The translations under genes and the position numbers were made by a program. From positions 1 to 43,988 of the IMG/VR virus record IMGVR_UViG_3300020438_003368: a stretch of DNA of 43,988 nt. One strand, 5' to 3'. The notes under the pieces were generated by a model, which was given only the letters and a program-made list of their open reading frames with translations, searched no databases and was not told the DNA's origin. The DNA is from a virus. This document shows, one piece after another, positions 11,741-43,925 of this stretch (its first letter is position 1; every line of letters starts with the position of its first letter).

Positions 11741-12409
11741 ATGAAAAAACTAATGGCTGTGGGGCTTATTGCTTTAAGCCTCGGAGCTTGTGCGAGTACG
11801 TCCACTACTGAGTATTATGCAGCAATGGAAAGAGCAACTCTAGCACAAGCAAAAGTCCAAGAGGCACGATATAATGCTCTAAGCAGAATTGCAGGACAAG
11901 GCAACGAGGCAGCAACTGCCGCGGTTATGGCACTCGCTATGACAAATCAAACTCCTATAATTCCTCAGGCTCAAAAGTCTGCTGCCCTACAATGGGCTCA
12001 AGTTTTGTCAGGTCCAGTTTCGTCACTCGGAGCTATGTGGCTTTCAAATGATGCAACTAAATCAATGGCAAAATACAATAGTCAGACTCAAATAGCAAGT
12101 ATACAAGCAGATCAAACAAATACTACAGAGTTGTATGGTTTATTGGGTTCTAACTCTAATAATCTAACAAGTGTGGGTTTGGGAGGGTTTAATGCGCTGA
12201 ATACTTCTATGGAATATATAAGTCCGGATATGCCTGATTATTCTACTGACTTTAGTAATATTGATAATTACTTACTAAAAATAATAAATAACTTAAATAC
12301 TACTAATACGCAAGATAATCAAATCTGGGTTCCGGGTGTGAATTGTGTAAATGCAGCTAATCCAGGTATTATTGGGGTTGGAGGTACAGTTACTGTTTGT
12401 CCACAATAA
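11741..12409 (+). CDS. lipoprotein of unknown role
   Basis: A 222-residue protein with a lipoprotein signal: KK, hydrophobic VGLIALSL, then LGAC with C17 as the lipidated Cys. The mature part begins with a helical, Ala/Gln/Glu-rich segment (about 25-60), then Thr/Asn/Ser-rich sequence and a C-terminal pair of Cys (about 205 and 220) that could form a disulfide. AAGGAGG precedes the start by 9 nt. It ends the + strand structural run at a terminator. Phage lipoproteins often act in lysis or in blocking superinfection; which applies here cannot be told. Confidence 0.65.
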   Translation: MKKLMAVGLIALSLGACASTSTTEYYAAMERATLAQAKVQEARYNALSRIAGQGNEAATAAVMALAMTNQTPIIPQAQKSAALQWAQVLSGPVSSLGAMWLSNDATKSMAKYNSQTQIASIQADQTNTTELYGLLGSNSNNLTSVGLGGFNALNTSMEYISPDMPDYSTDFSNIDNYLLKIINNLNTTNTQDNQIWVPGVNCVNAANPGIIGVGGTVTVCPQ

Positions 12410-12410
12410 A

Positions 12411-12430
12411 AAAGGGGCTTTCGCCCCTTT
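12411..12430. terminator. bidirectional intrinsic terminator between convergent genes
   Basis: A perfect 8-bp stem AAAGGGGC/GCCCCTTT with a 4-nt loop. On the - strand it is followed by TTTTTTATT, an ideal U-tract for ending the long leftward transcript. On the + strand the run after the stem is weaker (TTTCATT). It lies 2 nt beyond the lipoprotein stop and 3 nt beyond the receptor stop. Confidence 0.85.
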
Positions 12431-12432
12431 CA

Positions 12433-14703
12433 TTAGAAGTTATATCTAAGTCTGCCCATAATTTGTCTGGGAGGAATTAATTCTATACCTGTTGCACTTA
12501 CCCCAAATACATCAGTCATGCGGGAGTTTACTCCTGCTTTATCTCCTATATTATAAGCCATTAAGTCAAATCCTAGTTTTTCATTGTCTAAGTCATAGCT
12601 AAGTAATATATTAACTATATTATAACTTGGAACTGTGTCAACAGTAGGATTGTTTATTACTCTTTGCTGAAATTCTCCTCTATGAACATACTGTATAATT
12701 CCTGTAAAGAGTCCAGAGGTAAAGAACTTCTCATACTTCAAACTTACATTTCCGGTCATGTTTGGAGTCTTCGCTAAGTCATTTCCTTGTATGTCTTCTC
12801 GGAGTCCATATCTTATAGCTTCTTGGCCAAAAAAGTATGGTTCTGCTTTTACATTGTCGAGAGCTTCGTAGGGCGATTGGATATTCGATTCAAGAAATGA
12901 AACTTTCATATCAAGAGTCAAGGAGTCCGTAATAAGTTGTATAAATTCAACTTCTCCACCTTTTACTTCTACCTCAGGTATATTTGCCACACCTCCTCGG
13001 TATATATCTGGGTCTGTTGCCTGAAACTGTAAGTTCTCGTAATCATAGAAAAATACTGCTACGTTTAATCTACTTCTCTGACCAGCTATTTTTAAGCCTA
13101 GTTCATATGCCATTACTTCTTCATTATCAAAGATAGGAAAAACCATAACTGGAGCATTATCATTATCAAAACCAAATGTGAGATTGCTTCCTCCGGGTTT
13201 AAAACCTTTGGTTGCTGAAAAATAAGTCATGGTTCCTTTCCTCGGATTCCATTCTACTGCTACTCTTCCAGTCGTCTCTGTTAAGTTTTCGTTTAGATTA
13301 TACACCTGCCCTGGTATTCCAAAGAAGTTGGATACAAAGCTGTCCACTGTGTCGTCTGTATAGCGTAGTCCTGTAATTAGGCGTAAGCTATCAGTCATGT
13401 GTAATGTTGTTTGTGCAAAAACTGAGTATGATTCTCGTGTGGGGTATGCATCAGAAATAAAGCCTACTTCAGCTCCATAAATTGCAAAACACGCAGGGCA
13501 CTCAGAGTTATGTACATACGGTGTGAATTGTCCATCTGCTAAACCAATATCGTATACATTATTTACATCTTTGTATTCACGAATATGATTTTCTATTTCA
13601 TGGTCAAGATAAAATGCTCCGACTGTCCAATCCAGCTTTCCAAAAAGTGGAGTATCAGAAATTAGGTTGACTTCAAAAGTTTTTGTCTCAACCATTGAGG
13701 TTTCTGGGTCGTACTCTGCCCGAATATAGGGAAGCCCCGCCCAAAGACCACCAATATGGATGTCTCCAAAGTTGTGCCTATCATTATCTCTTTTGACTAG
13801 TACATCATCTTTTTGCCAACTTGCTATAGCTTTTAGAGTTGAATTAGTAAGTCCAACTTCAAGTATAGCAGCGGCAAGTTTAGAGGTAAGTTGAAAGTTT
13901 GCTTCTGTATCTTGGACTAGTTCTCGAGGATCTGGAGTTTGATCATCAATACCTTTCATCGCAGCTCCGTTATTATCTGCGTCAAAATATTGAGCAAAAA
14001 CTCTTAGACTAGCAATGCCTTTCGTATACTGCCAATCTGTGCGAGCACTTACAGAGCTCATATCATCTAAGTCTTGTCCATTTAGTAGATTTTTGGAAAA
14101 TCCGTCTCTGTTTACAACAGATACAGAGGTTCGTGTAGCTAGATTTTCCGAGAGGGGGGTATTCATAGAGACTCTAAACTTTGTTAGATTATAGTCTCCG
14201 ACGGTGAGATCTCCTGTGGCTCCAAATACATTACTCGGTGCTTTACTAATTACATTTATAGCACCTCCTGTAGAGTTTTGTCCAAAAAGGGTGCCTTGCG
14301 GCCCTCTAAGAACTTCTATTCGCTCAACGTCTATAAAATCTGTCTGAAGAGCGAAAGGAGAGGCTACATAAACCCCGTCTAAGTGATAAGCTACTGATGG
14401 GGCTGCTATTGCATTTTGATTAGTCTCATTACCGATTCCTCGAATTGATATAATCGTTTTGTACCCTTCGTTCTTTGTAACTGTTACTCCTGGAGCTATA
14501 GCACTCAGATCGACAAAGGTATTTATGTTTTTTTGGAGCAACTCTTCTCCTGAGAGAACTGTTATAGCTTGTGATATATCTTTTAGGTTTTCATCGCGTT
14601 TTTCCGCAACTACTACTATTTCTTCTAAATATTCTATCGACAAACTTGGTACTGAAAAGCTTAATAAAATTCCTACTATGAAGAGTTTTGTACCTCTACT
14701 CAT
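12433..14703 (-). CDS. TonB-dependent outer-membrane receptor
   Basis: A 756-residue protein with all parts of a TonB-dependent receptor: signal peptide (about 1-22, FIVGILLSFSVPSLS), a TonB-box-like segment EEIVVVAEKRDEN (27-39), a plug domain with ISIRGIGNE and the highly conserved VLRGPQGTLFGQNSTGGAIN, then a long barrel of amphipathic strands ending in RLRYNF with terminal Phe. An exposed loop carries CPAC. Length and frame are intact. In cells such proteins import siderophores, haem, vitamins or glycans using TonB. The ATG lies within ATGA shared with the 52-residue gene upstream, and GGAGG precedes it by about 10 nt. Substrate cannot be deduced. Confidence 0.92.
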   Translation of the reverse strand: MSRGTKLFIVGILLSFSVPSLSIEYLEEIVVVAEKRDENLKDISQAITVLSGEELLQKNINTFVDLSAIAPGVTVTKNEGYKTIISIRGIGNETNQNAIAAPSVAYHLDGVYVASPFALQTDFIDVERIEVLRGPQGTLFGQNSTGGAINVISKAPSNVFGATGDLTVGDYNLTKFRVSMNTPLSENLATRTSVSVVNRDGFSKNLLNGQDLDDMSSVSARTDWQYTKGIASLRVFAQYFDADNNGAAMKGIDDQTPDPRELVQDTEANFQLTSKLAAAILEVGLTNSTLKAIASWQKDDVLVKRDNDRHNFGDIHIGGLWAGLPYIRAEYDPETSMVETKTFEVNLISDTPLFGKLDWTVGAFYLDHEIENHIREYKDVNNVYDIGLADGQFTPYVHNSECPACFAIYGAEVGFISDAYPTRESYSVFAQTTLHMTDSLRLITGLRYTDDTVDSFVSNFFGIPGQVYNLNENLTETTGRVAVEWNPRKGTMTYFSATKGFKPGGSNLTFGFDNDNAPVMVFPIFDNEEVMAYELGLKIAGQRSRLNVAVFFYDYENLQFQATDPDIYRGGVANIPEVEVKGGEVEFIQLITDSLTLDMKVSFLESNIQSPYEALDNVKAEPYFFGQEAIRYGLREDIQGNDLAKTPNMTGNVSLKYEKFFTSGLFTGIIQYVHRGEFQQRVINNPTVDTVPSYNIVNILLSYDLDNEKLGFDLMAYNIGDKAGVNSRMTDVFGVSATGIELIPPRQIMGRLRYNF

Positions 14704-14858
14704 ACATCTGATTCCTCCGTATTCTTCATCTCTGGCTGCATTTGTGGAGCAGCCTGTTCTTGTATCAGTTTAATAAGATTCATACTTAGTTTTGCAGGAA
14801 GTTCCCCCAAACCTTGCAGAATAATATTAACTTGTTCTATTTCAAATTCAAATTTCAT
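14700..14858 (-). CDS. small conserved phage protein (52 aa) linking nrdB and receptor gene
   Basis: A 52-residue acidic protein starting MKFEFEIEQVNIILQGLGEL and ending EESDV. I recognise the type as a small protein found near replication or nucleotide genes in marine phages, with no known function. Its ATG overlaps the TGA of nrdB (ATGA) and its own TGA overlaps the ATG of the receptor gene (ATGA). This chain makes translational coupling of all three very likely and shows that the receptor gene belongs to the phage operon. Confidence 0.75.
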   Translation of the reverse strand: MKFEFEIEQVNIILQGLGELPAKLSMNLIKLIQEQAAPQMQPEMKNTEESDV

Positions 14859-15814
14859 TTAAAAATGTCCTGCCAATTACCTGTCGTGCTAGCCCGAGAA
14901 TACTCAGTTGCACGGTTTTCAAAAAAATTAGTGTGCTCAACACCGTTTAACATGTAATCCAACCACGGTAATGGGTTTTGCTCACTCCCAAATATCTTTT
15001 TCATACCAAGACCTAGTAGCCTTCTATCTGCAATATATCGAATATACTCTTTTATCTGTTCGGGTGTTAGATCCGGTACTTCGGCATTTTCAAAACACAA
15101 ATCGATAAAAGCATCTTCCAACTCTACTGTGCGCTCTGCTGCACAATAAATTTCATACTTTAGATCATCCGTCCATAGCTCAGGGTTTTCTTTTATGAAG
15201 GTACGAAACAGTTGACACATTCCCTCAACATGCAATGTTTCATCTCGTACAGACCATGTAACAATTTGACCCATACCTTTCATAAGGTTGTGGCGAGGAA
15301 AGTTCAACAGGATAGCAAAACTACTAAATAGCTGCACCCCTTCGGTAAATGCCGAATAGATAGCCATAGTCTTTGCGATATCAACTGAAGTTCCCATACC
15401 AAAATTATTCAAGTGCTCATGTTTTGCTAACATTTCCTTGTGTTCAAAGAATTTTTGATACTCTTCGTCACCAAAACCTAGCGTTTCCAAAAGCAATGAA
15501 TACGCTTCCTGATGTACTGCTTCCATTGCTGCAAACGCAGACAACATCATTCGTACTTCAGGCTGCTTGAATGTAGGTAAGTAATGCTTTGCATACCCAC
15601 AACAAACATCTACATCCGCCTGCGTAAAAAACCTAAAAATTTGACTTATAAGTTTTTTATTTGCAGGAGTTAACTTTTCCCTGTAATCACGTAAATCATC
15701 CGCAAGATTGACCTCATCAGGAAGCCAGTGCATATGCTGTTGAGTTTTGTAATGTTCAAATGCCCAAGGGTAATTAAAGGGTTTGTAATAATTTCTTTCT
15801 TCTAATAAACTCAT
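14855..15814 (-). CDS. nrdB: ribonucleotide reductase, class I small subunit
   Basis: A 319-residue di-iron subunit that generates the radical for reduction of ribonucleotides to deoxyribonucleotides. Metal ligands are recognisable: D67, E98 and H101 (MEAVHQEAY), E158 (FTEGVQLF), E192 and H195 (RDETLH). Y105 is in the position of the radical tyrosine. Somewhat shorter than the E. coli protein (about 375) but complete. ATG with GAGG upstream. It follows nrdA after a 50-residue membrane protein gene and is coupled to the next gene by ATGA. It needs iron, which is notable beside the receptor. Confidence 0.93.
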   Translation of the reverse strand: MSLLEERNYYKPFNYPWAFEHYKTQQHMHWLPDEVNLADDLRDYREKLTPANKKLISQIFRFFTQADVDVCCGYAKHYLPTFKQPEVRMMLSAFAAMEAVHQEAYSLLLETLGFGDEEYQKFFEHKEMLAKHEHLNNFGMGTSVDIAKTMAIYSAFTEGVQLFSSFAILLNFPRHNLMKGMGQIVTWSVRDETLHVEGMCQLFRTFIKENPELWTDDLKYEIYCAAERTVELEDAFIDLCFENAEVPDLTPEQIKEYIRYIADRRLLGLGMKKIFGSEQNPLPWLDYMLNGVEHTNFFENRATEYSRASTTGNWQDIFK

Positions 15815-15977: not shown

Positions 15978-17747
15978 TTAGCCTTCACAGGCTAAACATC
16001 CTTCGTCGTCTATACTTTCAAAAATGTACTGTCGCAGTGCTTCGTCTGATACTGTCTCTGCTCTTTTTATAGCTTCACTTCTTAAGTAATATAACGTTTT
16101 TACTTTCTTTTTCCATGCCATCATGTGTATAGCATGAAGCTCTTGTTTTGATACATTTGCAGGAAAGAATATGTTTAGAGACTGACTCTGACATATTTCT
16201 TCCTGCCTATCCGCCGCCATTTCTATTATCCAGCGTTGGTCTAACTCTACGGCTGTTTTAAAAACGTCTTTTGTCCATTCGTCTAAAAAATCTAAATGTT
16301 GTACTGATCCGTTATTTGTAATAATACTTTTCCATACTTCGTTTGTGTCTTGATCTAGCTCTTGTAAAGCGTACTCAAGGTACTCATTCTTTAAAAGAGA
16401 TGATCCCGATTTAGTTTTTTGCGTAAATGCGTTAGCCCTGTATGGCTCGATACTAGGAGAAGTATTCCCACAGATAATAGAACTGCTAGCATTGGGAGCC
16501 ACAGCCAAAAGATGAACATTTCTAACCCCATACCCAACAGCATCAGGGGCTTCACCACGCTCCATTGCCAGAGTTTTTGTAGCATTTAAAGCCTCCGATT
16601 TAATATGCTTAAACATTTTTAAGTTAGTCCCTTTTGCCATAGGACTCTCAAAAGGAATGTTATGTCTTTGTAAATACGCATGGAACCCCATTGCTCCAAG
16701 CCCAAGACTTCTTTCCATTTCTGCACTAAATTTAGCTTTTGAGAGTGTATTCGGTGCATTTTCGACAAAGTAACTAATTACATTGTCAAGCATCCGAATA
16801 AGATCAGGGATAAAATCTTTGTGCTCTTTCCATTCATCATACTCTTCTAAATTTACACTCGATAAACAACATACTGCCGTTCTCATTGCATCTGTAGCTA
16901 GTGTTATTTCTGAACACAAATTTGAATGATTTACTTTAAAACCTTTTTCTGCTTGGCACAGGGGCAATCCCGCTTGAACAGTATCACCAAACATAATGTA
17001 AGGTTCTCCAGTCTCCACTCTATTTTGTATTAGTTTTACCCACAGTGTTTTAGCAGAAACTGTTTTAGTAACTTTTTGTGTATGTGGGTCAATTAGATCC
17101 CAAGAGTCATCAAACCCTTCTTCTCTTGTAGCTCCTTCTATGAGAGCCATGAACTCATCGCTAACCACCACACCATGATGAAGATTAACAGACTTTCGAT
17201 TAACATCACCACCGGTGGGCTTACGTACATCCAAGAACTCTTCGATTTCAGGATGAGATATATCCAAATACGCCGCATAACTGCCTCTCCTTGTTACACC
17301 TTGTGAAAACGCAAGCATTTCCGCATCTACAACTTTCATAAATGGTATGACTCCCGTACTTTCAGAGCCACTTGAAGTTTTTGCACCTACTGAACGTATA
17401 GCGCTCCAAGAGCCCCCAACGCCACCACCAACACTAGATAAAAAGGCATTCTCAGTGTAATGCCCGGTAATCCCTTCTCTGCTGTCCTCAACATAATTAA
17501 GAAAGCAACTAATAGGGAGCCCACGGGTGGTCCCACCATTAGAAAGTATAGGAGTAGAAAACATGAACCAAAGTTTACTAGCATAGTCGTACAACCTTTG
17601 TGCGTGCGCCTCATTGTCTGAAAAAGCTTTTGCGGCACGTCCAAAAGCTTCCTGAGGAGAACTTTCTCCATCAACTAAATATCTATCCTGTAGAGTTTTG
17701 TGACTAAACTCTGACAAATAGTTGTCTCTTCTGTAATCAATTAACAC
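15978..17747 (-). CDS. nrdA: ribonucleotide reductase, class I large subunit
   Basis: A 589-residue catalytic subunit. Active-site residues are present: C81 (ISCFLNY) and C293 (redox pair), N276-C278-E280 (NLCSE, thiyl cysteine C278), the radical-transfer pair Y553-Y554 (TLYYLRSEA) and C584/C587 near the C-terminus (CLAC) for re-reduction. It is shorter than bacterial NrdA (about 760) because the N-terminal ATP-cone that mediates dATP inhibition is missing; the sequence starts directly before the catalytic core. GTG start with GGGAG upstream, overlapping the exonuclease gene by 7 nt. Confidence 0.93.
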   Translation of the reverse strand: MLIDYRRDNYLSEFSHKTLQDRYLVDGESSPQEAFGRAAKAFSDNEAHAQRLYDYASKLWFMFSTPILSNGGTTRGLPISCFLNYVEDSREGITGHYTENAFLSSVGGGVGGSWSAIRSVGAKTSSGSESTGVIPFMKVVDAEMLAFSQGVTRRGSYAAYLDISHPEIEEFLDVRKPTGGDVNRKSVNLHHGVVVSDEFMALIEGATREEGFDDSWDLIDPHTQKVTKTVSAKTLWVKLIQNRVETGEPYIMFGDTVQAGLPLCQAEKGFKVNHSNLCSEITLATDAMRTAVCCLSSVNLEEYDEWKEHKDFIPDLIRMLDNVISYFVENAPNTLSKAKFSAEMERSLGLGAMGFHAYLQRHNIPFESPMAKGTNLKMFKHIKSEALNATKTLAMERGEAPDAVGYGVRNVHLLAVAPNASSSIICGNTSPSIEPYRANAFTQKTKSGSSLLKNEYLEYALQELDQDTNEVWKSIITNNGSVQHLDFLDEWTKDVFKTAVELDQRWIIEMAADRQEEICQSQSLNIFFPANVSKQELHAIHMMAWKKKVKTLYYLRSEAIKRAETVSDEALRQYIFESIDDEGCLACEG

Positions 17748-23026: not shown

Positions 23027-24310
23027 TTACAGTTCCTCTATTTGATAACCCTGTTTCATATAGTAGCCCATCCTATTGGAAGCCTGTCTTTTTGCAGTAT
23101 TCCCTTTTAGATGTATATCTATTACCAGAGGGTTTCTCTTCCCCTCCTTTTGTCTTATAACTCTGCCTATCAACTGAGTTAACAAAGGGTCATTATTAAC
23201 AGGCGTGCCCAATATTAAACAACTTAACTCATCTAATGAGATGCCTTCTGAGAAAATTGCTTGTGTTCCGAACAACATTGTTGCTTTACCTGTTTTAATT
23301 TTAGACATTAGTGTTTGTCTCTCCTCATGCGGGACTTCCCCCGTAACACATACGGCTTTTTCTCCTGCCAGTTCGGCGCAGGCCTGCAAAAAACGCACTC
23401 TATCACTTACTATTAGCACCTTATGGCCTTTTGTTGCCATTGCAGCCGCTAAAAGTGAAATAGTGTGTATATATTCTTCATTATAAGAGAGTTGTGTTAC
23501 TTTATTTGCCCACGGAGTTCTAGCTCCGTCCATAAATCGTATCTCAGACCTATGAATAAGAATTTTAGGAGCCATATAGTTTTCTTTTGGGGGTTTATGA
23601 ACTTTTTGTCCAAAATAGTCACGAAACACTACATGCTTTCCATCTTTTCTTTCTATAGTACCTGATAGTCCTATCTTATATCTTGCATAGTTTGTATCTA
23701 CTACTTTAGAAAACGTTGGAGACGAGACATGATGCATTTCGTCCAAGATGATGGTTCCAAATTCTTTACGTATAGCTGGAATCCTACGATACAGACTTTG
23801 AGTGTTACCAATAACCACAGGACTGTCAAGATCCAACCTACCACTTCCAATAATGCCGGGGGTAATTCCATATACTTTTTCTACCTCTGTTGCCCACTGG
23901 TTTCTTAGTGGTACTGTGTGCACAATTATAAGGGTTTTCTGTGCTAGCTTGCCAGCAATCGCAAGACCTGTAAAAGTCTTTCCCCAACTGACCCAAGCGT
24001 TTATTATACAGTTGTCTTCAACATCGTCAAAAACTTCTTGTTGACTTTTTCGTAAATCAAACTTAAACTCAGGAAATTGGACAGGTAAGTTTACCCGTTT
24101 ATCGACTACTTCATATTCATTTGGTATTAAATCCGTTCTTCCTATTGGAATACTGACTAAGTTACTCTTAATACGTGCCATATTCTTAATAACTATAGGT
24201 GGATCCTTTGGGTTGAACGAAGGAATAGTATAAGTTAGTTCTTTGCTTAAAACGTCTTTATATTCGTCCGTTACTTCCAAATAAATGCGATTGCTGACTA
24301 CAGCTTTCAT
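23027..24310 (-). CDS. superfamily 2 DNA helicase, UvsW-like
   Basis: A 427-residue helicase. Motif Q-like region FDLRKSQQEVFDD (84-96); a degenerate Walker A, WVSWGKTFTG, with K111 and T112; DEMHH (190-194) as motif II; LSGTIERKDG as motif III; and LIGRVIRQKEGKRNP as motif VI. UvsW-type enzymes remodel branched DNA and R-loops, which fits the recombination genes downstream. ATG start overlaps phoH by 4 nt. Confidence 0.85.
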   Translation of the reverse strand: MKAVVSNRIYLEVTDEYKDVLSKELTYTIPSFNPKDPPIVIKNMARIKSNLVSIPIGRTDLIPNEYEVVDKRVNLPVQFPEFKFDLRKSQQEVFDDVEDNCIINAWVSWGKTFTGLAIAGKLAQKTLIIVHTVPLRNQWATEVEKVYGITPGIIGSGRLDLDSPVVIGNTQSLYRRIPAIRKEFGTIILDEMHHVSSPTFSKVVDTNYARYKIGLSGTIERKDGKHVVFRDYFGQKVHKPPKENYMAPKILIHRSEIRFMDGARTPWANKVTQLSYNEEYIHTISLLAAAMATKGHKVLIVSDRVRFLQACAELAGEKAVCVTGEVPHEERQTLMSKIKTGKATMLFGTQAIFSEGISLDELSCLILGTPVNNDPLLTQLIGRVIRQKEGKRNPLVIDIHLKGNTAKRQASNRMGYYMKQGYQIEEL

Positions 24311-24960
24311 ACGCCCTCTTTTGCTATAATATACTCTTTTACAAAACCGCTTCGTACAATATCCTTTACTCCAAACTCTATGAAATTAAATCTTTTCATA
24401 CTGTTTAAAATTTCAAGAAACTCACCCATTCCATTCTGTTTTAGATCAGACTGGTTGAAATCTCCGCAGAATATTACTCTACAGTTTTCCCCGACTCTTG
24501 TTATAATAGAGTCTAGCTCATGAAAACTCATGTTTTGACACTCATCTATAAGTATAACTGCGTCCCTTAGTGTTATACCTCTTATGTAAGAAGTAGTCAT
24601 AAAATGTACTAGTCCTTTGGTCTTTAATATTTGATATGCATCCCCTCTTGAGAATAAGTCTATTGCTATATCTCTATAGGGTTCTTCATATACTGAACTT
24701 TTTTCTTTTTCGGTTCCAGGTAAAAAGCCAATGTCTCTTGTTGGAACAGCACTTCGCATAATTACTAGCTTTTCATACTGATGTTTTGTCATATCATCAA
24801 AAGCAAGATAGCAAGAAACAAAAGTTTTTCCTGTTCCTGCGCACCCGTGTAATACTAAGTTCTTTGTTGATTCGAAAGCAACAAGTTGATTACTAGTTAG
24901 TGGTTCTATTTCAACAAGCTCTAACCCTGAGCCATTTAAAGTTTTACTGCGTTTTCCCAT
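24307..24960 (-). CDS. phoH: PhoH-like ATPase
   Basis: A 217-residue P-loop protein: Walker A HGCAGTGKT (38-46), the PhoH-type MRSAVPTRDIGFLPG and Walker B AVILIDECQN, then GDFNQSD sensor region. PhoH-like genes are common in marine phages; biochemically the family includes RNA helicase/nuclease-like activities, but the phage role is unsettled. It overlaps the UvsW-like gene by 4 nt and follows a conserved unknown gene by 6 nt. Confidence 0.9.
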   Translation of the reverse strand: MGKRSKTLNGSGLELVEIEPLTSNQLVAFESTKNLVLHGCAGTGKTFVSCYLAFDDMTKHQYEKLVIMRSAVPTRDIGFLPGTEKEKSSVYEEPYRDIAIDLFSRGDAYQILKTKGLVHFMTTSYIRGITLRDAVILIDECQNMSFHELDSIITRVGENCRVIFCGDFNQSDLKQNGMGEFLEILNSMKRFNFIEFGVKDIVRSGFVKEYIIAKEGV

Positions 24961-41046: not shown

Positions 41047-41433
41047 ATGCAACAGGGAACTAATTTTGAATTAGTTGGGGATTTTATGGAATCAATGGAT
41101 CAAGAAGTGCGTATCAAGCCTTCTTTTCCTGAGGGAGACATACAGAAACTTAGATTTGATTTGGTAGAAGAAGAACTAGATGAGCTTCAGTACGGTATTG
41201 ACAATCAAGATATTGTTGAAATTGCGGACGCACTTACCGATCTTTTATATGTAGTGTACGGAGCAGGTCATGCTTTTGGAATAGACTTAGACGAGTGTTT
41301 TTCAGAGGTTCACCGAAGTAATATGAGCAAACTTGGTCCAGATTTTAAGCCAATAAAAAGGGAAGATGGAAAGGTATTGAAACCTGACACATACTCCCCT
41401 CCTGATCTTAAAACTATATTGGCAGGTCAGTAG
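41047..41433 (+). CDS. mazG: MazG-like nucleotide pyrophosphohydrolase
   Basis: A 128-residue enzyme of the all-alpha NTP-pyrophosphatase fold. Metal-binding residues are in VEEELDELQYG (41-50) and EIADALTDLLYVVYG (58-72): E42, E45, E58, D61 and D65. Phage MazG proteins hydrolyse dNTPs or (p)ppGpp-like nucleotides; the true substrate here is unknown. Preceded by AGGAG. Its end runs 14 nt into the oppositely oriented tRNA-Trp gene. Confidence 0.88.
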   Translation: MQQGTNFELVGDFMESMDQEVRIKPSFPEGDIQKLRFDLVEEELDELQYGIDNQDIVEIADALTDLLYVVYGAGHAFGIDLDECFSEVHRSNMSKLGPDFKPIKREDGKVLKPDTYSPPDLKTILAGQ

Positions 41434-41493
41434 GGACTTGAACCCCAACAAACGGTTTTGGAAACCGGTATGCTACCATTACATCACTGACCT
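41420..41493 (-). tRNA. tRNA-Trp (CCA anticodon)
   Basis: A 74-nt tRNA on the - strand: acceptor AGGTCAG paired with CTGACCT, discriminator G and encoded CCA end, anticodon CCA at 41459-41461 in loop TTCCAAA, T-arm with GTTCAAG. The anticodon arm closely matches enterobacterial tRNA-Trp, though its first pair (27-43) is a C-U mismatch. Its 5' end overlaps the sleB-like stop codon by 2 nt. Confidence 0.9.
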
Positions 41494-41950
41494 AATTCTC
41501 TGAGTAAAACCTATGGTCGCCTATTGTCGTATGATGACTATATGCGTCAGCCCAGTAGGGATTTACAGTATTTGCATGATACCAGTATATGTTACGGGGC
41601 AGTACTGGTGAATCTTTATTCTTTAGCCTCACATATGCAATCATTGTACACAAATTAAAAGTAGATAAGTCACTTCTTTTTGGGGTGTCAGATAGTCCAT
41701 CACAAAACCAACTAAACTGACAAATCCACTTTCCTCCCGCATTTTTTCGTTGCTTTACTACTTCACAAACTGTGCCAGGCCATCGCTTGTCTTTTACTCG
41801 ATTGAGCGTTACATCTGCGACTGCGTACATTCCTTGAATGGATTGGTTTCTAGCTTCCCAATAGATATTTTGTGCTAGACATTTTACTTCGTCTGCCATT
41901 ACCCAAGTACTGCTCGCCACCAAAGTGATGGCTACTATTACTCCTCTCAT
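41492..41950 (-). CDS. cell wall hydrolase, SleB-type, with signal peptide
   Basis: A 152-residue exported hydrolase. Signal peptide 1-19 (VIVAITLVASSTWVMA); mature part starts DEVKCLAQNIYWEARNQSIQ with the conserved Glu (E32), then VADVTLNRVKD and a C-terminal segment with His and Tyr. The family cleaves peptidoglycan (lytic transglycosylase-like). The ATG at 41950 is chosen because a longer frame from 42058 would be read from tRNA-His. Four Cys may form disulfides. Being exported by itself, it does not need a holin. Confidence 0.85.
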   Translation of the reverse strand: MRGVIVAITLVASSTWVMADEVKCLAQNIYWEARNQSIQGMYAVADVTLNRVKDKRWPGTVCEVVKQRKNAGGKWICQFSWFCDGLSDTPKRSDLSTFNLCTMIAYVRLKNKDSPVLPRNIYWYHANTVNPYWADAYSHHTTIGDHRFYSEN

Positions 41951-41975
41951 TTTTAGACTCCATACTATAAATCTC

Positions 41976-42052
41976 TGGGGTGAATGATGGGGCTTGAACC
42001 CATGACCACCGAAATCACAATTCGGAACTCTACCAACTGAGCTACATTCACC
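41976..42052 (-). tRNA. tRNA-His (GTG anticodon)
   Basis: A 77-nt tRNA on the - strand, including the extra 5' G (-1) opposite C73 that marks tRNA-His. Acceptor GTGAATG/CATTCAC, D-arm GCTCAGTTGGTAGAGT, anticodon loop TTGTGAT with GTG (42016-42018), perfect CCGAA/TTCGG stem, T-arm with GTTCAAG, and encoded CCA. Confidence 0.93.
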
Positions 42053-42076
42053 CCGCAAATTACCTTAGGTATACTA

Positions 42077-43126: not shown

Positions 43127-43330
43127 CTACATCCAGCCTTCTTTTTTTGCTTTAATTTCCCATGCTTTCTCGAAGCCTTCGCCATGTGCATATGAAAACT
43201 CTTCGTTGTGCCAAGCTCTATTGAAGTAGCCCCAATAACAATCGTACATCGTTTTCTCACTTACATTTAAGTGACCTTTCGTCTTGTAAAACATCTCACA
43301 AACTTTTTTACGGCTTGGGTATTCATCCAT
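43127..43330 (-). CDS. small phage protein of unknown function (67 aa)
   Basis: A 67-residue protein starting MDEYPSRKKVCEMFYKTKGH, with YDCYWGYFNRAWHNEEF and a final WEIKAKKEGWM. Many aromatic residues suggest a compact helical fold. The ATG at 43330 overlaps the ppk2-like stop (ATGGATGA), so the two are probably co-translated; a longer frame from 43414 lies within the kinase gene. No family is recognised. Confidence 0.55.
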   Translation of the reverse strand: MDEYPSRKKVCEMFYKTKGHLNVSEKTMYDCYWGYFNRAWHNEEFSYAHGEGFEKAWEIKAKKEGWM

Positions 43331-43925
43331 TGCAAACCCTAATGATTGCTTCGGCAGCTGACTTGATGCCACTCTTTTTATCGTTGTAGTCAAGAACTTG
43401 CCACTCACTGTCAATTACACGCTCTTTCAAGAGTGTCATTCTATCGTAGTGCGACAGTGCGTTTTCATCATTCTCTGAGAACTTCCAGTAAGTCAGAGGA
43501 GAGTTCTTTCGTGTATCAATTCTGTACCTTTGCTCTTCCTCTGTGATAGATAGCCATAGTTTCACAAAGGTGGTGTTCTGAGCTTTCTCCCAACTTTTGT
43601 ACTCGTCTAGGAAGGTTTTGTACTGCTCTTCTGTGCACCAGCCATTTAGCTTTTGTACCATAGCTCTGGAATACCAAGAACGATCATAAAATACAATCTG
43701 ACCTTTCTGGGGCATTTTCGTACTCCAGTGGTCTAGCCAGTTCTCCATAGTGTCTTTACTTGGTTTTGTAGAGGGAACAACCGAGTACCATGCAGGGGAT
43801 AAGTATTGGGTCAAAGCTCGTATCGTACTTGACTTTCCAGCCGTGTCTCTGCCTTCTAATACTACTGCTATACGTTTATTGTTGTTACTTGCGATCTGAT
43901 TTAGTTTTGCTAATAATTTTTTCAT
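43323..43925 (-). CDS. polyphosphate kinase 2 (PPK2) family protein
   Basis: A 200-residue P-loop kinase. Walker A is EGRDTAGKSS (24-33), Walker B VFYDRSWYSRA (78-88) with D81 and R82, and the lid module has LWLSITEEEQRYRIDTRK then YWKFSENDENALSHYD, all as in PPK2. The family uses polyphosphate to phosphorylate nucleoside mono- or diphosphates, or the reverse. It is shorter than typical bacterial PPK2 (about 230-300), missing the N-terminal extension. The ATG is 6 nt beyond a -10 box. Class, and hence substrate, cannot be settled by eye. Confidence 0.87.
   Translation of the reverse strand: MKKLLAKLNQIASNNNKRIAVVLEGRDTAGKSSTIRALTQYLSPAWYSVVPSTKPSKDTMENWLDHWSTKMPQKGQIVFYDRSWYSRAMVQKLNGWCTEEQYKTFLDEYKSWEKAQNTTFVKLWLSITEEEQRYRIDTRKNSPLTYWKFSENDENALSHYDRMTLLKERVIDSEWQVLDYNDKKSGIKSAAEAIIRVCNG

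Follow-up and report, generated by a model that had tools for sequence, protein, structure and literature searches.

Introduction

The auxiliary genes with which phages support the nutrient supply of an infected cell are usually seen as acting in the cell interior, at the inner membrane or in the periplasm. At the outer membrane, the marine megaphage Mar_Mega_1 encodes a SusC-like TonB-dependent receptor (TBDR) that was proposed to be an auxiliary metabolic gene for carbohydrate or nutrient uptake (PMC9723777), and viral contigs from oxygen-minimum zones carry the genes glnK-amtB-ompL (PMC8115048). A survey of metabolic genes encoded by viruses of the global ocean mentions neither TonB nor porins in its main text (PMC11360552). 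While nutrient-uptake auxiliary genes of phages are already known, we found neither a phage purine receptor nor a phage cassette slot for outer-membrane proteins described in the literature within reach, most subscription papers and supplements lying outside it. Here we analyze a TBDR gene that is joined to the ribonucleotide reductase genes of a marine phage. The stretch of DNA studied, a 43,988-base IMG/VR virus record, is called the window throughout.

Results and Discussion

The receptor gene lies on the minus strand of the window at 12433..14703 and encodes an intact TBDR of 756 amino acids, here called type A, as judged by ORF call, Pfam and Foldseek. A signal peptide of about residues 1–22, MSRGTKLFIVGILLSFSVPSLS, was recognized by eye (14638..14703, minus strand), and the TonB box-like motif LEEIVVVA was read directly at residues 26–33 (14605..14628, minus strand); its EEIVVVA part is conserved in all four phage copies of the receptor. 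The plug domain follows at residues 40–148 (14260..14586, minus strand; PF07715, 1.7e-17, 64.3 bits against a cut-off of 23.9). The beta-barrel extends from about residue 160 to residue 756 (12436..14226, minus strand), with a PF00593 match at residues 262–719 (1.4e-35, 124.5 bits), long strands predicted across residues 161–755 and a C-terminus that reads ..RYNF, hence with the terminal Phe. The structure prediction that had been suggested by an earlier, sequence-only reading of this DNA returned a barrel fold with FyuA (4epa) as the best Foldseek match (E 1.4e-27, TM 0.64/0.76), although the AlphaFold model is of modest confidence (pLDDT 57.5, pTM 0.63), better in the barrel and poor in the plug. 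With signal peptide, TonB box, plug and Phe-ending barrel all present, the gene is confirmed to encode an intact, full-length TBDR, as that reading had claimed.

The neighboring genes are those of nucleotide metabolism. Upstream of the receptor on the same strand are nrdA, the large subunit of ribonucleotide reductase (15978..17747, PF02867, 1.6e-113), nrdB, the small subunit of 319 amino acids (14855..15814, PF00268, 1.6e-75), and orf52, a 52-residue gene with no assigned function (14700..14858). Both junctions of orf52 are ATGA overlaps, visible as tcat on the plus strand, with nrdB at 14855–14858 and with the TBDR gene at 14700–14703. The tightly coupled part is nrdB-orf52-TBDR; between nrdA and nrdB there is a gap of 163 nt in the window. 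An intrinsic terminator ends the operon at 12431–12410 on the minus strand (9-bp stem, T tail, fold energy −15.2 kcal/mol, z −3.5 against shuffles). The link to nrdB through two overlaps and the strong terminator, both noticed in the sequence-only reading, hold in full, while the interval 12433–14858 that it had given comprises the TBDR gene together with orf52. The latter is kept in relatives with and without a gene behind it and is perhaps an nrd accessory.

The minus strand of the window forms a replication block with a DNA polymerase, a DnaB-type helicase, a primase, an NAD ligase, a 5′-3′ exonuclease, nrdA and nrdB, while structural and tail genes occupy the plus strand. The DNA polymerase has its closest counterparts in T5-like phages of Aeromonas and Vibrio (42–44% identity). 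A PhoH gene is found at 24307–24960. Convergent with the receptor locus lies a gene for a probable lipoprotein of 222 amino acids (11741–12409, plus strand, lipobox LGAC), which many relatives keep regardless of what the receptor locus contains. Two tRNA genes, tRNA-Trp and tRNA-His, were seen within 41420–42051 (minus strand); a cell wall hydrolase ORF (41492–42058) was called with a start that takes in tRNA-His, and its real start is probably further downstream.

Type-A receptors of 82–90% identity were found on four other viral contigs, the same set in two viral-contig searches. The order nrdA-nrdB-orf52-TBDR is common to the window, L002/L003 and L005. With 100% identity across 11.9 kb, L002 and L003 were counted once, as one population; L005 is 94% identical to L002. 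All of these contigs come from other metagenomes than the window and have its nrdB-orf52-TBDR junction. In L004 the strand is switched: the receptor gene (82%) converges with nrdB, and a peptide deformylase gene overlaps and follows it (L004:9929–12636), an arrangement that represents a relocation of the TBDR cassette. Omega (dN/dS) amounts to 0.04–0.07 for the TBDR and to 0.05–0.07 for nrdA, with synonymous sites near saturation, so the phage TBDR is under purifying selection. As a host-type metabolic gene that has phage flanks and is maintained by selection, it qualifies as an auxiliary metabolic gene. That only five type-A viral contigs were found, the window included, could speak for a non-functional passenger or an assembly chimera. 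Because contigs assembled separately share the junction, the constraint on the gene is this strong and the borders against an empty site are clean (see below), we nevertheless regard a chance insertion or mis-assembly as having next to no probability; the GC content of the gene (38%) is also that of the phage (39%). An assembly artefact in particular is ruled out by the junction recurrence and the empty-site alignment, and the assertion that this is a genuine phage gene stands.

The relatives brought to light what could not be visible in one sequence, namely the modular, slot-like nature of the locus. Alignment of the window with the empty-slot relative L010 defines a variable cassette interval of 12427..14727: homology breaks off at 14727 (orf52 end) and returns at 12427 (terminator). 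With the porin-bearing phage L009 it stops at 14712 and resumes at 12444. For a survey, 80 loci were retrieved by nrdB alone, 69 of which had at least 700 nt downstream. An outer-membrane protein gene occupies the exact slot in 12 of these 69 (type-A TBDR in 2, type-B TBDR in 4, TorF-family porin in 6) and is absent in 57, frequencies that depend on the contigs reached by the searches. The type-A TBDR is therefore optional for these phages, since most relatives have no slot gene. Type-B TBDRs have 813–816 amino acids and are unrelated to type A, with about 25% identity. The slot porins (194–195 amino acids, TIGR02001/PF09694) were modelled with 12 strands (pLDDT 88.6), and the predicted structure resembles KdgM-type porins. 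Searches with the slot proteins furnished further cases, among them TBDR-B and porin in tandem (L127/L128); the alignment of L039 with L127 places the porin directly behind TBDR-B. The slot is thus found with a type-A TBDR, a type-B TBDR, a TorF-family porin, TBDR-B plus porin, or empty, and the ATGA overlap with orf52 is retained in most occupied slots.

A second, unrelated phage group, distinguished by a terminase and portal of its own, has a type-B TBDR (60% identical), with a TorF porin behind it in L133. Genes for polyphosphate kinase 2 (PPK2) lie in the window at 43323–43925 (minus strand) and at L133:2643–3263 (minus strand); both TBDR-bearing phage groups thus carry PPK2. TorF-family porins were also seen in viral contigs of other contexts (L159–L183), several of them beside a terminase, as in L171; the porins of L174, L176 and L178 have other neighbors, which in L174 include a redoxin gene.

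Among bacteria, the nearest relatives of type A belong to SAR86, to PS1/OCS116 alphaproteobacteria and to other marine gammaproteobacteria, mostly at 55–63% identity. The type-A receptor occurs in 104 of 199 SAR86-order genomes, usually as a single copy, and in the tree the bacterial relatives at 57–64% identity make up one clade. The phage clade is sister to this sampled bacterial clade and not nested in it, with modest support (97/65). The TBDR stands between an NCS2 permease (PF00860, divergent) and a phosphoribosyltransferase (PRT) in 20 of 20 loci from the SAR86 order, and likewise in PS1/OCS116 wherever both flanks were available (nine loci). The other marine gammaproteobacteria, represented by seven loci, have the permease near the receptor in a different arrangement. 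In each of 10 SAR86 genomes tested, PF00860 is single-copy and adjoins the TBDR. The closest solved relatives of the SAR86-type permease are the adenine/guanine permeases AZG1 and AZG2, and those of the PRT are purine PRTs. In one neighborhood guaB and guaA accompany the receptor (L235), and in another guanine deaminase, HIU hydrolase, OHCU decarboxylase and ureidoglycolate lyase are nearby (L093). The phage TBDR is related over its full length (about 60%) to these permease/PRT-flanked receptors, and we consider its sequence-based assignment to the purine family well supported; the phage copy itself has nrdAB as its operon partner and neither a permease nor a PRT beside it. No paper was found that describes the bacterial receptors as purine transporters. 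Purine-usage genes were reported to be absent in SAR86 by Braakman et al. 2025 (PMC11698098), who searched with homologues of operons that they had noticed. Adenine/guanine-type NCS2 permease, purine-type PRT and TBDR stand together in SAR86-order loci L200–L219 and L230–L236, and this locus may have been missed by that search.

The bacterial relatives of type B have purine genes in eight of nine loci, including a purine nucleoside permease, adenosine deaminase, NCS2 permeases, nucleoside hydrolase, (8-oxo)guanine deaminase and a PuuE-like deacetylase, with urease in one locus. One gammaproteobacterial purine locus (L237, G593) contains three tandem type-B TBDR genes. The TorF porin of SAR86 heads a torF-glnK-amtB set in five of nine loci read, with the families confirmed for two loci. 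From this gene context of the bacterial relatives, both TBDR types of the slot are purine-linked and the porin is ammonium-linked.

A phage-like nrdA was sought in 203 SAR86-order and 18 PS1-order genomes, where we detected just homologues of 53–56% identity; neither this search nor the tree, in which the phage receptors branch outside all sampled bacteria, linked the phage to a host. The searches against bacterial receptors and phage genomes that the sequence-only reading had proposed gave the bacterial relatives described above and nearly no full-length match in phage records: among 50,697 of these, none was found beyond records of an Acinetobacter "phage MD-2021a", annotated with bacterial-type receptors, which are probably bacterial contigs. 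No TorF porin match was found among isolate phages. In the viral structure library (E<=0.001), the sole TBDR-fold match was a SusC-named protein of an uncultured marine phage.

Taken together, we think it likely that the receptor is a phage-made outer-membrane purine importer that feeds dNTP synthesis alongside the phage NrdAB. The gene would be transcribed during infection at the end of the nrdAB operon, and the new receptor would reach the host outer membrane via the host Sec and BAM machineries, to be energized by the host TonB-ExbBD. Scarce dissolved purines, presumably the nucleobases hypoxanthine, guanine, adenine or xanthine and possibly nucleosides, could then enter the periplasm through the receptor. 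The host inner-membrane permease and PRT would convert them into purine nucleotides, which NrdAB would reduce for phage DNA synthesis; a gain of nitrogen may be a second benefit. In favor of purine import are the intact, constrained gene with its ATGA coupling to nrdB, the purine permease and PRT that flank its bacterial relatives, the purine-locus relatives of the unrelated type-B TBDR from the same slot, and the recurrence of type B in the second phage group. Against it stand the phage's lack of a permease or PRT of its own, the substrate being read from gene neighborhood at about 60% identity with a phage clade that branches outside the sampled bacteria, and the slot gene being absent in 57 of 69 relatives.

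The sequence-only reading had also raised the exchange of surface receptors and a decoy against rivals, in which a phage-made receptor would displace, dilute or mimic the host receptor, so that surface presence and not transport would matter. TBDRs such as FhuA do serve phages as receptors, the DNA polymerase of the window is closest to T5-like ones, and the solved complexes of FhuA with T5 pb5 and with Llp are among the fold matches of the window TBDR. A precedent also exists in phage PA-2, whose own receptor is replaced by a porin that the phage encodes. A decoy, however, needs neither TonB box nor plug, and because both are highly conserved here and the two unrelated slot TBDRs both come from purine-linked families, with the porin ammonium-linked, we judge this reading less likely than purine import and indeed improbable; the strong overall constraint and the placement with nrdAB speak against it as well. 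The same reading's idea of nutrient uptake fared better, since the receptor appears able to alter uptake, but not with iron as the nutrient, the closest relatives being in purine salvage and catabolism loci. Uptake of siderophores or haem during infection would fit the generic siderophore-receptor models that are the top NCBIfam matches and FyuA as the nearest solved chain. Yet the score for TIGR01783, 125.7 bits, falls short of the curated cut-off of that model (223.5); every specific siderophore or haem model stayed far under its cut-off, and the closest relatives adjoin purine genes, while genes for siderophores were not noticed in the neighborhoods read. An iron receptor was rejected on these weak, generic matches and seems very improbable. 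Purines may finally be the cargo while the benefit lies in supplying nitrogen to a host starved of it, and not in nucleotide precursors. The slot can instead hold a porin of the TorF family, whose SAR86 members head torF-glnK-amtB operons, the type-B relatives lie in catabolic loci with the PuuE-like deacetylase and, once, urease, and marine viruses with glnK-amtB-porin are known (PMC8115048). In SAR86, on the other hand, the genes around the type-A receptor serve salvage and not catabolism (permease, PRT and, once, guaA/guaB). As the phage gene also shares an operon with nrdAB, nitrogen as the main benefit is in our view unlikely. Purine import for phage DNA synthesis remains the reading that we prefer.

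Conclusion

In summary, the virus appears to rebuild the outermost, TonB-energized uptake step for a substrate that its own operon needs. We lean slightly toward a broader picture in which several unrelated marine phage lineages possess a dedicated outer-membrane nutrient slot, where purine TBDRs and ammonium-linked porins are swapped at a fixed operon position, so that infection would remodel the host outer membrane for the import of nitrogen-rich nucleotide precursors that match the local nutrient supply. The analysis provides a purine substrate hypothesis for a receptor family present in about half of the sampled SAR86-order genomes and in PS1/OCS116, and makes it a testable question whether an infected cell is a stronger sink for dissolved purines.

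Compared with known systems, the phage receptors are nearest to bacterial ones: type A resembles the purine-locus TBDRs over the full length (57–64% identity) with plug and barrel intact, and type B resembles a gammaproteobacterial family from larger genomes (58–60% for the closest loci). They differ in that the phage copy sits in an nrdAB-orf52 operon without permease or PRT. Among phage families, PHROG phrog_5687, which is unannotated, matches the plug regions of both type A (E 2.1e-28) and type B. The receptor of Mar_Mega_1 (PMC9723777) is likewise a marine phage-encoded TBDR proposed for nutrient uptake, but it is of the SusC (carbohydrate) type, belongs to another type of phage and shows 13% identity in a structural alignment. 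The viral glnK-amtB-ompL genes (PMC8115048) are similarly a marine nutrient-uptake set that includes an outer-membrane porin; there, a Bacteroidetes OmpL is combined with an inner-membrane transporter, whereas here a TorF porin or a TBDR stands alone in an nrdAB operon.
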